Shown here piece after piece: positions 50,419-55,361 of a DNA stretch of 64,000 nucleotides. The number at the start of each line of letters is the position of its first letter. The first letter of the stretch is position 1. The notes beneath the pieces were generated by a model. That model saw only the letters and a program-made list of their open reading frames with translations, ran no database searches and was not told the DNA's origin. The position numbers were made by a program, and so were the translations under genes. The DNA lies in assembly GCF_028747805.1 (NCBI RefSeq), contig NZ_CP114887.1, positions 3,142,001-3,206,000 of the forward strand, read 5' to 3'. The DNA comes from Solibacillus daqui (GTDB lineage Bacteria; Bacillota; Bacilli; Bacillales_A; Planococcaceae).

Positions 50419-50682
50419 CTAGTGCACAAACAATACTTTTTTGGTCTCGCTCAGCTCCTCAGCATAAAGATTAAATACCTTATTTTTCCGCTCATCATCT
50501 AATACGCTATCAAATTCATCGAGCACAATATAGCCTGATGAAGTGGCTAAGTTTTGCAGTAACGCGAGTGCAAATAGAAGTGAGCTTAGTGATTCCTCCC
50601 CACCTGATACACCTAGTAACACCTTTAACTACGAACCTCCAAGACCACGAAATGAAGCAATCCATTTATGTTTAACGAGCTT
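50419..50682 (-). pseudogene. C-terminal remnant of an SbcC/Rad50-like ATPase
   Basis: The frame reads KLVKHKWIASFRGLGGS, then a TAG stop, then in the same frame LKVLLGVSGGEESLSSLLFA...GYIVLDEFDSVLDDERKNK...FVH. SGGEES is an ABC signature, IVLDEFDSVLD a Walker B and D-loop, and FVH the switch histidine region of SMC/Rad50-type ATPases. The Walker A half and coiled coil are gone and a nonsense codon interrupts the rest. Original terminator retained. Confidence 0.75.
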
Positions 50683-50707: not shown

Positions 50708-51355
50708 CTAGCTGGTCTTTAAATTAATGTGAGAAGAATTTTTCCTAGTTAACTTGTAAACTAAGCCTATATAAATCCAATCATATATAAGTATGGCAAC
50801 AGAAATCATCGTAATTAAGCTTGCTTTGAAATACATATAGAAAGCAATAGAAATACATAAGGTACCTAGCATTTTAAAAATAGCGATTGCTAAAGATTGC
50901 CCCTTCAAACTCCCTCTCCATAATAGCAAAGAAATAAACAGACCCGACATCATTAAGTTTTGCGAAAAAGCAACGTACTTCCCTTCAAAATCATTTATCT
51001 CATGTGTGATCATTAGTATTATGTAAAAACTAATGCCTAGTGTTATAAAGAAAGAGGAATAAAAAAGCTTCCATGAAAGGTATTTTTTAAATTCCTTTCG
51101 CCCATAAGTTAAATATTGCATTAGTATAACAATATCCAAGGCAAACCAAATCATCGTAATTTTCTGTTGTATATCATTGATTGGGTAAATGAATGCGAAA
51201 ATGAATTCCCATGAAATATTTGCACAAATTGCAACCATTGGCATGCCATATGCCTTATCTCGAAATCCCTGCATTATTATGAGTATGTACGTCATAATCC
51301 AAAATAGCGCCATCCCCAATTGCAACACGAATAACCAATTAATTTGGTCCGCCAA
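50708..51355 (-). CDS. Pyr4/PaxB-like transmembrane terpene cyclase family protein
   Basis: 215 residues from TTG 51355, which has AGAAGG 9 bases upstream; the frame stays open to an ATG at 51451 without a site. About seven membrane helices. The segment WIMTYILIIMQGF, then RDKAYGMPMVAICANISWEF and WFALDIVILMQYL match the pattern I remember from fungal PaxB/Pyr4 cyclases, and the C-terminus has IYDWIYIGLVYKL. The two catalytic acidic residues of Pyr4 would correspond to Glu50 and Asp192. These enzymes protonate an epoxide or alkene to cyclise prenyl chains. No prenyltransferase or monooxygenase is adjacent, so the bacterial role is unknown. Confidence 0.65.
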   Translation of the reverse strand: MADQINWLFVLQLGMALFWIMTYILIIMQGFRDKAYGMPMVAICANISWEFIFAFIYPINDIQQKITMIWFALDIVILMQYLTYGRKEFKKYLSWKLFYSSFFITLGISFYIILMITHEINDFEGKYVAFSQNLMMSGLFISLLLWRGSLKGQSLAIAIFKMLGTLCISIAFYMYFKASLITMISVAILIYDWIYIGLVYKLTRKNSSHINLKTS

Positions 51356-51509
51356 ATACACCATCCTTCTGATTAATAAAACCGCGCTCGTCTCTGTCAC
51401 TATATGAAGAGGTGGGTATTCCCTATTCAAATTTTTGTTAATTGCTTTCATGGGAGGCTGTACTTCAGGGATGGGATGGATCTTGTACCTATGATCAAAT
51501 CGAAATAAA

Positions 51510-51546
51510 TTACGGCTAAACTCTTATTCAATGAGTTCAGCCGTAA
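51510..51546 (-). terminator. Probable terminator of the permease/amidohydrolase operon
   Basis: TTACGGCT and AACTC pair with GAGTT and AGCCGTAA (one mismatch), but the minus-strand tail AATTTATTTC is an imperfect T tract. Confidence 0.6.
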
Positions 51547-51642
51547 TCTTGCCTTCTCTTTTCACCTAATACAAGAAGTATTAAGAACGCATATAGAGAA
51601 GATCTATGTTATATCATATTGGGGATATGATTTATAACTAAA

Positions 51643-53250
51643 TTAAACGATGGCACTTTTTAACTCGTAAACAACTTCGCCATCACACATTGTAAATACT
51701 ACTTCTGTTTCTAAAATATCTTTTGACTGAATTTCAAATAAATTTTTATTCATTACAATAATGTCGGCTAGTTTTCCTTCTTCTAAAGTTCCTAAATTCT
51801 CTTCACGGAAGCATCCATAAGCCGGTTCATATGTGTATGCTTTTAATGTTTCAGACATCGACAATTTTTCATTCGTATTCCAATCATTCACTAGCGTACT
51901 ATCTTTTCTCGTGACAGCATGGTAAATTTCTTTCATTGGTGAAATATGGACTACAGGAAAGTCGCTTCCTAAAGCTACAATCGCTCCAGCGTTTAAAAAT
52001 GATTTACTTAAATACGTATTTTTAAAACGCTCCTCACCGAGTCTTTCTATATAAATTTTTTGCTCTAAAGCGGCTAAATGATATGGTTGAATCGATGCAA
52101 TAATATTTAGCTCTTTAAAACGTAATATATCTTCATCACGAATCGATTCAATATGCTCGATTGTATGTCGCGTGTTTTGGCTTCCGTTTAACTTTCTCGC
52201 TTTTTCAAACGCGTCTAATGAAAACTTTACAGCTCCGTCACCGATTGCGTGTAAACGTACGCTAAATCCTTCTTTATCTGCCTCTATAATCCACTCTTCT
52301 AGTTGTTGTAATGGATACGTCGTATCACCGCGATGGGCAACATCTGCATAATCTTCTAACATGTATGCAGTATGACCCGTTATAACACCGTCAATAAACT
52401 GCTTCAAGCCATTCATTTTAATTTTGGGATGATTATATTTTTCCTTAAATATTTTCGCTTGATCTAAACAGTCATCCATTTTAGGTTGTAAATGAACTCT
52501 CGCTTTTAATTGTTTCTTTTCCTCTAATTCATAGAGCAAATCAAAGTCATCTAAAAATTCAGAAAAAGGTGCATACATATCATTTAACGATGTAATACCG
52601 TGGCGTGCTGTATAGTCAAAAAAGTTGTTGAGCATTGCAATTTTATCTTCTTTACTAAAATTGTAAGCTAATTTTTGTACTAAACTTTGCGCCTTTTCCA
52701 TTAAAATCCCTGTAATTTCTCCATTCGCATCTTTCATAATTTCACCGAATTCAGGATTAGGCGTGTCCTTCGTAATTTCCGCTAATTCCAGCGCTTTACT
52801 GTTAACCCAACAATAGTGACATTCTAAATGATTTAATATAATCGGATGGTCTGGGAAATGTACATCTAATAATTCTTTCGTTGGTAATGCTGCATCATTC
52901 CAACCGCCATTGTCCCAACCAAATCCAATAATCCACTCTTTATGTTGATGTTGGTCCCAGTCTCTTTTAATAACTTGAATGACATCTTCAGCTGATTTAG
53001 TTTCACTCAAATCGATACTTTGCAATTGTAATGCGCCTGGAAAAAGATGCAGATGAAAGTCATGAAATCCTGCCATTACTAATTGGTCATCAAAATTGTA
53101 TACGGTTACATCTTCATTTAAAATCGGCTTTAATTCTTCAATAGATGGTGCAATCTTAATAATTTTATTTCCTTCAACTAAAATAGCCCCTGGTACTGGT
53201 CTATCAGTTGTTCCTGTAAATACTTGATTACTAATTAAAACTTGTTGCAT
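51643..53250 (-). CDS. YtcJ-like metal-dependent amidohydrolase
   Basis: 535 residues. Family hallmarks: MAGFHDFHLHLFPGALQL (metal-binding His-x-His), IIGFGWDNGGW, RLHAIGDGAVKFSLDAF, RHTIEHIESI and ALGSDFPVVHISPMKEIYHAVTR (metal Asp), then a C-terminal beta-sandwich. Such enzymes hydrolyse amides or related bonds, often of N-substituted compounds; the true substrate is usually unknown. Ribosome site GAGGAGGG is inside the last codons of the permease gene, 2 bases apart, so it is co-translated with the APC permease. It probably degrades what that permease imports. Confidence 0.88.
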   Translation of the reverse strand: MQQVLISNQVFTGTTDRPVPGAILVEGNKIIKIAPSIEELKPILNEDVTVYNFDDQLVMAGFHDFHLHLFPGALQLQSIDLSETKSAEDVIQVIKRDWDQHQHKEWIIGFGWDNGGWNDAALPTKELLDVHFPDHPIILNHLECHYCWVNSKALELAEITKDTPNPEFGEIMKDANGEITGILMEKAQSLVQKLAYNFSKEDKIAMLNNFFDYTARHGITSLNDMYAPFSEFLDDFDLLYELEEKKQLKARVHLQPKMDDCLDQAKIFKEKYNHPKIKMNGLKQFIDGVITGHTAYMLEDYADVAHRGDTTYPLQQLEEWIIEADKEGFSVRLHAIGDGAVKFSLDAFEKARKLNGSQNTRHTIEHIESIRDEDILRFKELNIIASIQPYHLAALEQKIYIERLGEERFKNTYLSKSFLNAGAIVALGSDFPVVHISPMKEIYHAVTRKDSTLVNDWNTNEKLSMSETLKAYTYEPAYGCFREENLGTLEEGKLADIIVMNKNLFEIQSKDILETEVVFTMCDGEVVYELKSAIV

Positions 53251-53252
53251 GT

Positions 53253-54587
53253 TTAGCCCTCCTCAGCAAATTCTAAATTAATTTTATTTATCCCTTTAAA
53301 TTTCACTAAATAAATTAAGTAGCATACACCGATAGCACCCCATGTTATTCCAAATACAACTGATATAATGTCTAACTTAAATAATAGGTAGATGATAAAC
53401 AAAGATCCAAGACTCGGCATTAATAAATATTTAATCGTTGCGCCAAATGAGCGATTTTTATTTTTGATATAGTAATGAAATACAACCGATACATTAACAA
53501 ATAAAAATGCTATTAAAGCGCCGAAATTAATAAATGAAGTTGCTAATGTTAGTGTCATAAAAAACGATAACAGAGAAATTGCAGCGATTAATAGTAAATT
53601 AAAGACGGGTGTTTTATATTTCGGACTTAAAGAGGCAAATACTTTTGGAAGCATGTTATCCCGCCCCATAGCGTACAGGACACGCGACGCACTTGCTTGT
53701 GATGCAAGACCCGATGCAAAACATCCGATTAATGTACCTGCTAAAAAGAATGAAACAAATAAATTACCGCCTACCATCGTTACTAACTCTACAGCTGCCG
53801 AATCCAAATTTGCAAAATTTCGATAATTTGGTTGGACAAGTGTTCCTAAATAAGAAACAACTACGAAAGTAAATGTTCCAATTGCAATGATTGTATAGAT
53901 TGCTCTTGGAATTGTCTTTTTCGGTTCAATGACTTCTTCCGCTAACGTCGTAATTGAATCAAATCCTAAGTAAGAGAAACATAGGAGAGAGGCACCCGCC
54001 ATAATCATAGACATATCAAATCCAGATCCCAACATTGGTGATAATGTAAATAAGGTAGAAGCCTCATTACTTGCTAATACATACCGAATACTTAAGAACG
54101 AAAAAATAAAAACAACTAAAAACGAGTAGATTAAGAGAAGTGTGTTTACCCAGGAAGCCATTTTTGTACCTTTAATATTAATAATTGTATTTAAAACAAT
54201 TAACAATATAATCCAAAATCCATACGGTATTTGTGGCAAGATTGAATGTAAAAATATCGCTGCAACTAAATAGTTTACCATCGGTAATAATGCATAACTT
54301 GTTAAGAGTGCCCACCCTACTAGAAAACCTACTTTTGAATTGACAGCGCGATGTACATAGGAGTAAGCCGAACCTGAAATAGGGAATGCTTTAACCATTT
54401 GAGCATAACAATAACCAGTTAACGATAAAGCTAATGCAGTAAAAATGTACGCAAGTGGCACTCTACTATCTGTCACTTCTGATGCAATCCCAAATGTCGT
54501 GAAGATAGTAATTGGAGCCATTAATGATAAACCAAAAACAACAAGCTCTTTACCTGTTAATCTTCTAACTAAATTTACTTCTGACAT
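53253..54587 (-). CDS. APC-family amino acid/amine permease
   Basis: 444 residues from ATG 54587 (GGAGGGG 4-5 bases upstream; a longer frame starts 11 codons earlier). Twelve helices with the APC signatures GLSLMAPITIFTTFGIASE, FPISGSAYSYVHRAVN (helix 3) and FSYLGFDSITTLAEEVIEPKKTIPRAI (helix 6 and the following loop). Imports an unknown amino acid or amine. Operon with the amidohydrolase; promoter carries TetR-type operators. Confidence 0.9.
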   Translation of the reverse strand: MSEVNLVRRLTGKELVVFGLSLMAPITIFTTFGIASEVTDSRVPLAYIFTALALSLTGYCYAQMVKAFPISGSAYSYVHRAVNSKVGFLVGWALLTSYALLPMVNYLVAAIFLHSILPQIPYGFWIILLIVLNTIINIKGTKMASWVNTLLLIYSFLVVFIFSFLSIRYVLASNEASTLFTLSPMLGSGFDMSMIMAGASLLCFSYLGFDSITTLAEEVIEPKKTIPRAIYTIIAIGTFTFVVVSYLGTLVQPNYRNFANLDSAAVELVTMVGGNLFVSFFLAGTLIGCFASGLASQASASRVLYAMGRDNMLPKVFASLSPKYKTPVFNLLLIAAISLLSFFMTLTLATSFINFGALIAFLFVNVSVVFHYYIKNKNRSFGATIKYLLMPSLGSLFIIYLLFKLDIISVVFGITWGAIGVCYLIYLVKFKGINKINLEFAEEG

Positions 54588-54606
54588 AAAACCCCTCCAA
54601 TCCATA

Positions 54607-54690
54607 TGACTGATTATCATTCATTTTCAAAATAAAAAAATATGAATGACTGATTATCATTCATATTAACATATATTATTTGGTTTACAA
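54607..54690 (-). promoter_or_regulatory. Promoter and TetR operators of the permease/amidohydrolase operon
   Basis: Minus strand: TTGTAA (54690-54685), 16 bases, TAATAT (54668-54663). Overlapping the -10 is ATATGAATGA-CTGATTA-TCATTCATAT (54640-54666, perfect 10-base arms), containing TGACTGA-TTA-TCATTCA (54647-54663). A second TGACTGA-TTA-TCATTCA lies at 54607-54623. The same core is found at the TetR and SMR promoters. Confidence 0.7.
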
Positions 54691-54780: not shown

Positions 54781-54809
54781 AAAAGTGCATTTTATTTCAA
54801 TGCACTTTT
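54781..54809 (-). terminator. Terminator of tetR-type gene
   Basis: AAAAGTGCATT and AATGCACTTTT are perfect arms; the gene's last codons lie in the stem and a T run follows on the minus strand. Confidence 0.75.
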
Positions 54810-55361
54810 CGTAAATTCAACTAATTCTTTATATTGGGCTTCAATTTCATCTTGTGAGGGTGAATCATATAAATATAATTGTTCTGCAGTGGATTCTATT
54901 AAGCCAATTAAAATTCGTGATGTACGCGAGCAATTTATATTCTCTCGGATTTCTCCTTTTTCACTCGATTGTTGTAAGAACGTACACATCCAATCATAAA
55001 ATGGCGAATAAATAGATTCCCATTGCTTTAAATGCTCACTTTGTGCTAATCCAGCATACAACATTGCAAATATTTCCTTCTTGCTATCGGTAATACGAAA
55101 AACGGCACTTACTAAATCTTCAATTTTCTTGTCAAGATCATCTGCTAAATTGATACTTGAATGGATTTCTTTCATAATCTCTTCAACAGCAAATTTTGCA
55201 ATTTCTGGCATGACAGAAAACTTCGATGGAAAATATAAATAAAAAGTACCTTGTGCTATACCGGCAGCTCGAACAATATCCGATATTTTCGTATTTTCCA
55301 CACCTTTAATTGAAAATTGCTCAATTGTGGCTTCAATTATTTTTTGTTTTTTATCCAACAT
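54792..55361 (-). CDS. TetR-family transcriptional repressor
   Basis: 189 residues. N-terminal helix-turn-helix (about 1-50) reads IIEATIEQFSIKGVENTKISDIVRAAGIAQGTFYLYFPSK, the TetR signature. The C-terminal ligand domain (KEIFAMLYAGLAQSEHLKQW...LIGLIESTAEQLYLY) is of the YerO/QacR-like kind. Ribosome site GAGGTG. A TGAATGA-AAT-TCATTCA operator covers its own transcription start. It most likely represses itself, the SMR exporter pair upstream and the permease operon downstream until a toxic amine or cation binds. Confidence 0.92.
   Translation of the reverse strand: MLDKKQKIIEATIEQFSIKGVENTKISDIVRAAGIAQGTFYLYFPSKFSVMPEIAKFAVEEIMKEIHSSINLADDLDKKIEDLVSAVFRITDSKKEIFAMLYAGLAQSEHLKQWESIYSPFYDWMCTFLQQSSEKGEIRENINCSRTSRILIGLIESTAEQLYLYDSPSQDEIEAQYKELVEFTKSALK

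Follow-up and report, generated by a model that had tools for sequence, protein, structure and literature searches.

Pyr4-like transmembrane terpene cyclases, with Pyr4 and PaxB as the fungal examples, are known in bacteria from XiaE/XiaH and DmtA1 (PMC6173783) and from TylF, GroF, and ZigF (PMC13307353), and those described in these two reports work in natural-product clusters. A total of 1107 bacterial Pyr4-like candidates have been charted, of which 264 with terpenoid genes nearby were taken further (PMC13307353). In the bacterial drimentine cyclase DmtA1, changes to W29, Y33, W59, or E60 abolished activity, changes to D214, N56, or Y217 impaired it, and D94 and E133, which are described as unique to DmtA1-3, also matter (PMC6173783). 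The gene considered here encodes a Pyr4-like protein in Solibacillus daqui (Planococcaceae) and lies on the minus strand of a 64-kb stretch of DNA (assembly GCF_028747805.1, contig NZ_CP114887.1, positions 3,142,001 to 3,206,000; hereafter, the window) from a genome consisting of one contig of 4.11 Mb. Its upstream sequence raises the possibility that the enzyme serves the spore.

A Pyr4-family protein and its catalytic residues

50708..51355, minus strand: gene for a Pyr4-like transmembrane terpene cyclase, 215 amino acids, TTG start (PF25129 match, comparison with the same-species locus L034, ribosome-binding site, and seven-helix model)
51206..51208, minus strand: codon of Glu50, the proposed general acid, helix 2 (115 of 115 aligned rows; by spacing the equivalent of DmtA1 Glu60)
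50780..50782, minus strand: codon of Asp192, the second acid, helix 7 (115 of 115 rows; by motif the equivalent of DmtA1 Asp214)
51134..51136, minus strand: codon of Asp74, a third invariant acid, helix 3 (115 of 115 rows)

The protein almost certainly belongs to the Pyr4 family. Its sole Pfam match above a curated cut-off is PF25129 (Pyr4-TMTC), at 89.3 bits against a cut-off of 27 (E = 3.9e-25) and over positions 19-217 of the 227 in the profile. No match was found in NCBIfam or among PDB sequences up to an E-value of 1, nor to the PQ-loop, SWEET, and KDEL receptor families of Pfam up to the same value. The SQHop_cyclase profile of Pfam does not match the protein above its cut-off, and PF13243 has no match in the S. 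daqui genome. A sequence-only reading of the window had placed the gene in the Pyr4/PaxB family on a motif that is present in the translation (RDKAYGMP, N-I-S-WEF, IYP, and W-F-A-LD, together with IYDWIYI), and the profile search, which found no better Pfam match, bears this out. The same reading had presented a fungal-type cyclase in a bacterium, which is correct as to family but is not new, given the bacterial members named above. Judged by its sequence, the protein is a plain new member of a known family, encoded by an intact gene.

For the alignment, 119 rows were collected, of which L053, L058, L135, and L151 were omitted as broken or short, leaving 115 rows, 94 of them distinct. W19, N46, W49, E50, D74, and D192 are invariant in all of these, and Y23 and Y195 are retained in 114. 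The rows from the search of named genomes were retrieved with patterns covering residues 12-19 and about 129-136, which accounts for part of the conservation in those segments; the acids lie outside them. Glu50 and Asp192 had been singled out beforehand as the catalytic pair, and neither varies among the homologs. By the published residue numbers, the spacings W-4-Y, W-27-N-3-W-1-E, and D-3-Y are identical to those of DmtA1, and from these numbers only, W29, Y33, N56, W59, and Y217 of DmtA1 correspond to W19, Y23, N46, W49, and Y195 here. For D94 and E133 of DmtA1, no counterpart was established in the window protein. Taken with the family assignment, this pattern suggests that the protein very probably has terpene cyclase activity.

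A sporulation-type promoter

51364..51369, minus strand: ribosome-binding site GAAGGA, 8 nucleotides (nt) 5′ of the TTG, read from the sequence
51399..51406, minus strand: -10 element CATATAGT of a sigma-E-type promoter (strict motif in 33 of 39 loci; sole copy in the window; identical before yabP)
51424..51428, minus strand: -35 element GAATA, 17 nt upstream of the -10 element (motif scan, position confirmed by a genome-wide pattern search)

In Clostridioides difficile, the -10 elements of sigma-E and sigma-K promoters are very similar and the -35 elements differ, being ATA and AC, respectively, much as in Bacillus subtilis; the C. difficile spoIIID promoter reads ATA-N16-CATATATA (PMC3789822). 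The sigma-E form, with a -35 ATA, a spacer of 16-18 nt, and a -10 of CATA type, was found upstream of the cyclase gene. A conserved block precedes the gene in all 39 loci from Bacilli, and 33 of these, from three genera and including the window, carry the strict motif [AG][AC]ATA-N17-CATA[TC]A[AG]T. Of the other six, four are spaced by 15 nt and one, L051, has CATATATT; the fourth genus is represented by L048 alone, which shows just the -10 element. The -35 reads ATA in 38 of the 39 loci irrespective of spacing. The strict motif is absent from all 630 other upstream regions of these loci, and shuffled sequences yielded 0.01 of 39. A looser form with spacers of 14-18 nt was present in all 22 named Bacillaceae-type loci, including a contig from a Tissierellales metagenome-assembled genome (MAG; L086), and in none of 58 others; Formimonas and Syntrophomonas lack it.

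The -10 sequence CATATAGT occurs once in the window, before the cyclase gene. In 200 kb of the same chromosome it has six copies: four inside genes, one elsewhere, and one 30 nt upstream of yabP; in that interval, only the yabP copy is placed where the promoter of a called gene would be. The yabP gene was identified through PF07873 and its neighbor yabQ, and in B. subtilis it is sigma-E dependent (PMC3533761, PMC517825). A looser sigma-E pattern, applied to the same 200 kb, gave one intergenic match, which was not recognized as belonging to a sporulation gene, and it missed yabP. Together, the conserved block and its likeness to the yabP element suggest that the cyclase gene is probably under sigma-E control, that is, expressed in the mother cell during sporulation.

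Distribution of the gene and of the sporulene route

The gene was found in 39 of 261 genomes of the bacterial family, in 4 of 19 genera. It is present in 30 of at least 32 Lysinibacillus genomes (G058 and G063 gave no match), in 4 of 16 Solibacillus genomes, in 4 of Psychrobacillus, and in 1 of another genus. Among 398 sampled genomes of the phylum, only the window itself matched. In a search of named genomes, the best 80 of 84 confirmed loci fell in Bacillota, Nitrososphaerota, Methanoperedens, Chloroflexota, Bacteroidota, Actinomycetota, Planctomycetota, Nostoc, and others. Outside Bacilli, identity to the window protein is 31-56 %, with the exception of the Tissierellales contig L086 at 63 %. 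In the midpoint-rooted drawing of the tree, a branch (support 100/99) has the 20 Bacillota rows together on one side, with Clostridia outside and Bacilli inside. The gene had been suggested to lie in an accessory-looking stretch, and it is patchy in Solibacillus, but the Lysinibacillus count and the Bacillota branch argue against its being a recent accessory of the family. A plasmid search with the cyclase protein returned six distant matches, in Streptomyces and Nostoc.

Two copies of the gene are broken, one by a split frame (G147; Psychrobacillus soli, L053/L135) and one by an in-frame stop (G054; L058). Some relatives have two cyclase paralogs per genome (3 of 18 named genomes: L104 with L123 in Ktedonobacter racemifer, L141, and L149). 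Archaeal relatives in Nitrosopumilus, Nitrososphaera, and Methanoperedens (L095-L097, L099, L105-L108, L110, L112-L114, and L118) show about 42-51 % identity, with no common neighbor seen. These archaeal genes prompted consideration of crenarchaeol ring formation as a function, which was rejected because the gene is sporadic in the Nitrosopumilus salaria family, occurring in only 9 of 200 sampled genomes.

In B. subtilis, the terpenoid sporulene is made from heptaprenyl diphosphate by YtpB, which is expressed under sigma-E in sporulation, and SqhC (PMC11708026); it is made in the mother cell and affects resistance to peroxide and ultraviolet light as well as germination (PMC13123705). Table 4 of one survey records sqhC in 8 of 10 endospore formers and lists it as missing only in two Lysinibacillus strains (PMC12654598), one of which, SDF0037, carries the cyclase (L147). 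The sporulene route was searched for in 32 genomes (16 Solibacillus, 11 Lysinibacillus, 4 Psychrobacillus, and 1 other), of which 18 have the cyclase and 14 lack it. YtpB was absent from all 32, and tetraprenyl curcumene, the sporulene precursor, was rejected as a substrate on that ground. A convincing SqhC was found in one genome, G042, where the cyclase is also present; G003 and G053 gave marginal partial matches just above the cut-off, and three further genomes gave matches below it. By these searches, the sporulene gap is real for the whole group, and the cyclase could fill it in only some of the group's members.

A candidate spore terpenoid cyclase

We propose that the product of the gene is an intact membrane cyclase of type II (proton-initiated), which would be made in the mother cell from the sigma-E-type promoter. 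Glu50, helped by Asn46, Trp49, Tyr23, and the Asp192/Tyr195 pair, in roles transferred from DmtA1, would protonate a pre-existing linear prenyl lipid of the cell at its terminal double bond, closing one or more rings; as in DmtA1, no epoxidase would be needed. The likeliest substrates would be housekeeping heptaprenyl derivatives, including menaquinone-7 (MK-7) and its precursors, or farnesol- or squalene-type products of a YisP-like enzyme of the SQS_PSY family. The product would be a spore terpenoid doing the job of sporulene in genera without the YtpB-SqhC route. Our confidence in this proposal, a mother-cell cyclase that would turn one of these candidate substrates into a spore terpenoid substituting for sporulene, stands just short of even; it was lowered slightly, since within the family the sporulene route is missing whether or not the cyclase is present. 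More tentatively, Lysinibacillus, Psychrobacillus, and some Solibacillus might share a novel cyclic spore terpenoid, formed by a Pyr4-type cyclase, that replaces the missing pathway.

Several observations weigh against this proposal. The 14 genomes without the cyclase also lack YtpB and mostly lack SqhC, so the loss of the route does not follow the cyclase within the family, and G042 has a real squalene-hopene cyclase together with this gene (stated contamination 5). The gene is missing from 12 of 16 Solibacillus genomes and is therefore dispensable there. Relatives also occur in non-spore-formers, archaea included; these cannot serve spores, and the chemistry of the family must be wider than a spore role. 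As for the promoter, the motif was derived from these same related loci, so its occurrence in 33 of 39 is a measure of specificity and not an independent test. The yabP control consists of a single gene whose -35 reads ATG instead of ATA, so that a strict ATA search misses it. A whole-genome search with the exact pattern gave 14 matches, and its reversed control gave 7; nine of the 14 lie inside frames of at least 150 amino acids, and none of the four others besides the cyclase was recognized as a sporulation gene. As a genome-wide finder of sigma-E promoters the pattern was rejected as too unspecific. Among the literature matches listed, none reports cyclic terpenoids in Lysinibacillus spores.

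The literature matches listed likewise include no earlier report of a stand-alone, probably mother-cell-expressed Pyr4 member in genera lacking sporulene. Were the spore-terpenoid proposal correct, this would be, to our knowledge, the first member of the Pyr4 family to serve development from outside a natural-product cluster. A soil spore-former with a stand-alone cyclase behind an apparent sporulation switch may carry in its spores a ring-shaped lipid from an undescribed route, and the cyclase is a candidate source of the spore terpenoid in genera without the sporulene route.

Alternative explanations

The alternative that survives best, itself unlikely, is a menaquinone cyclase that would form a ring at the end of the MK-7 side chain in any growth phase, as the omega-cyclic menaquinones of Nocardia require, for which the ring-closed MK-8(H4 omega-cyclo) of Nocardia is the precedent (PMC3621993). 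The S. daqui genome has two members of the UbiA family above cut-off, heme O synthase (TIGR01473) and MenA (TIGR00751, NF004749), with one match below cut-off, so that a UbiA-made prenylated aromatic must come from the heme O/A or the menaquinone branch, which favors this explanation. The Syntrophomonas relative G662 also favors it, having a single UbiA of the UbiA-other/MqnP-like type (MqnP models below their cut-offs). On the other side, the promoter points to sporulation, and Lysinibacillus is routinely described with plain MK-7. The menaquinone-like substrate that the sequence-only reading had suggested stays on the list of candidates, although the promoter speaks for a product of sporulation.

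Less probable again is a split meroterpenoid pathway, in which a prenyltransferase and an oxygenase would be encoded elsewhere in the genome and the product secreted as a natural product, as precedent in the family would allow (XiaH, DmtA1, TylF, and ZigF; PMC13307353, PMC6173783). The gene neighborhoods argue against it. Among named representatives of the neighbors in the 39 Bacilli loci, ordinary genes recur, namely a divergent yfiH-type polyphenol oxidase (30 loci), a LysM-CAP protein (19), and a gerA germination operon at most six genes away (17), and no operon partner is conserved across these loci. Among the other relatives, neighbors are common within a genus (Rufibacter, Mucilaginibacter) and not across phyla (74 of 80 loci). 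After removal of ten near-duplicate loci and of proteins outside 90-700 amino acids, the next and next-but-one neighbors outside Bacilli amounted to 156 proteins, of which 122 were scanned; among the commonest 25 of 126 Pfam families, none occurred in more than three proteins. A cluster of the Pyr4/PaxB/XiaH type, with a prenyltransferase and usually an epoxidase, was found neither among the neighbor representatives of the 39 loci nor among these 122 of 156 proteins.

The positions of prenyltransferase genes agree. UbiA genes were located in 29 genomes with the cyclase, and none lies within 15 kb of it on the same contig, the nearest being about 15 kb away (G658); because several of these genomes are drafts, the two genes might still be close neighbors across a contig end. 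In S. daqui the nearest UbiA gene is 127 kb from the cyclase, and the UbiAs are those of heme O and menaquinone only, SQS_PSY being the one non-UbiA prenyltransferase family searched for. The earlier statement that no prenyltransferase adjoins the gene is upheld by the neighbor survey and by these positions, and by the same evidence the cyclase gene stands alone, outside a biosynthetic cluster. SQS_PSY members are present in all 32 genomes of the sporulene sample, and their co-occurrence with the cyclase is uninformative.

Four Solibacillus genomes without the cyclase (G010, G009, G005, and G004; L154-L157) have an additional strong SQS_PSY gene (E about 1e-66 to 1e-71). An O-acylation cassette, DUF4358-MBOAT-DHHW (AlgX-like), lies near the cyclase in 5 of the 39 loci, from two genera (L035, L046, L047, L049, and L063), upstream in two and downstream in three. 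In the Tissierellales MAG contig L086 (6071-10288), genes for a thiamine pyrophosphate-dependent enzyme and a multicopper oxidase flank that of the cyclase, which has the same promoter form; the published zig cluster also contains a thiamine pyrophosphate enzyme.

It is improbable that the gene is expressed in sporulation under sigma-K or another sporulation sigma factor and that its product, such as a germination inhibitor or an exported signal, is unrelated to spore protection: the gerA operon near 17 of the 39 loci would fit, but the -35 ATA in 38 of 39 is of sigma-E type.

Predicted fold

A first model, built from 18 close relatives, reached a predicted local distance difference test (pLDDT) score of 76 and was replaced by one from a 74-sequence alignment, with seven helices, a mean pLDDT of 93.9, and a predicted template modeling score of 0.88. 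In it, E50 lies on helix 2, D74 on helix 3, and D192 on helix 7. The top Foldseek rows are KDEL receptors, SWEETs, and cystinosin, with a probability of 1.00 and a best E-value of 0.012, none being below 0.001. VIA-align gave Z 14.6 for the KDEL receptor, with a root-mean-square deviation of 3.6 over 178 residues, and further KDEL receptor, SWEET, and cystinosin rows down to Z 9.3, followed by ferritin as the next fold at Z 6.9; helical bundles can score this high through a common arrangement, and a missing match says nothing about other folds. Identity in the aligned KDEL receptor, SWEET, and cystinosin rows is 6-11 %. By these comparisons, the protein is predicted to fold like KDEL receptors and SWEETs. 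The PDB sequence search, up to an E-value of 1, found no solved Pyr4-type structure, and none of the literature matches listed links Pyr4-like cyclases to SWEETs or the KDEL receptor.

That the protein is a non-enzymatic receptor or transporter with the KDEL receptor/SWEET/PQ-loop fold and a retained Pyr4-like sequence, as its best structural alignments might suggest, is very doubtful, since the cyclase family is its only Pfam placement, the family-wide residues shown to be important by DmtA1 mutagenesis are retained, and, with no sequence relative in the PDB, the shared fold may simply be that of the whole cyclase family.

The reading frame and its surroundings

51356..51451, minus strand: in-frame upstream extension to an ATG at 51451, overlapping the promoter, absent from the relatives compared
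50419..50622, minus strand: remnant of an SMC/RecF-type ATPase gene, outside the system (PF02463, E 1.8e-6, below cut-off)

The longest mechanical frame, 50708-51451 on the minus strand, begins at the ATG and encodes 247 amino acids. The TTG at 51355, which gives 215 amino acids, is the better start, because in a genome of the same species (G001, locus L034) a stop codon stands immediately 5′ of the equivalent TTG, because GAAGGA lies 8 nt upstream, and because the 32-residue N-terminal extension is not common to the relatives compared; the coordinates 50708-51355 proposed earlier are supported on the same grounds. The extension is probably not translated. The decayed gene said to adjoin the cyclase is real, being the ATPase remnant listed above, and a comparable 79-amino-acid remnant is found at the same place in L034 (11114-11353); in each of the two genomes of the species, the remnant immediately follows the cyclase gene.

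Upstream, between the gene at 54792-55361 and the cyclase, the window has an amidohydrolase (PF07969) and an amino-acid permease (PF00324) at 51643-54620 that are missing at that place in L034. On the minus strand, the interval between the end of the amidohydrolase and the cyclase promoter contains, at 51509-51547, an imperfect inverted repeat of 15 bp (14 matching, as judged by eye) and, after it, a run rich in T; this may be a terminator isolating the cyclase unit. It is not listed by the sigma-70 promoter and terminator scan, in which promoters were not above shuffles (5 vs 8.2).

Comparison with known systems

With the fungal cyclases Pyr4 and PaxB and the bacterial XiaE/XiaH, DmtA1, TylF, GroF, and ZigF, the window protein shares a near-full profile match, its size, seven helices, the Glu/Asp pair, and those residues important in DmtA1 that the family as a whole retains. 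Unlike those cyclases, its gene has no cluster seen around it and no UbiA nearby, and it has a sporulation-type promoter. It also differs in that its type is found in 30 of at least 32 genomes of one genus, Lysinibacillus, and has relatives in ammonia-oxidizing archaea and Methanoperedens. If the spore-terpenoid proposal holds, the gene would be one outpost of a stand-alone bacterial and archaeal subfamily acting on a common prenyl lipid. For the charted candidates without terpenoid genes nearby, which are the majority of the 1107, the locus would offer a concrete role, in a housekeeping or developmental lipid.

The predicted fold is like that of the KDEL receptor, SWEETs, and cystinosin (PQ-loop proteins) and would tie the cyclase family to a transporter fold; the protein differs from these in having no Pfam match to them and in conserved residues that mark an enzyme and not a transporter. 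With the SqhC/YtpB pathway of B. subtilis, finally, it would share a role, that of a mother-cell cyclase for a spore terpenoid, and the same type II chemistry, whereas SqhC and the window cyclase belong to unrelated protein families.
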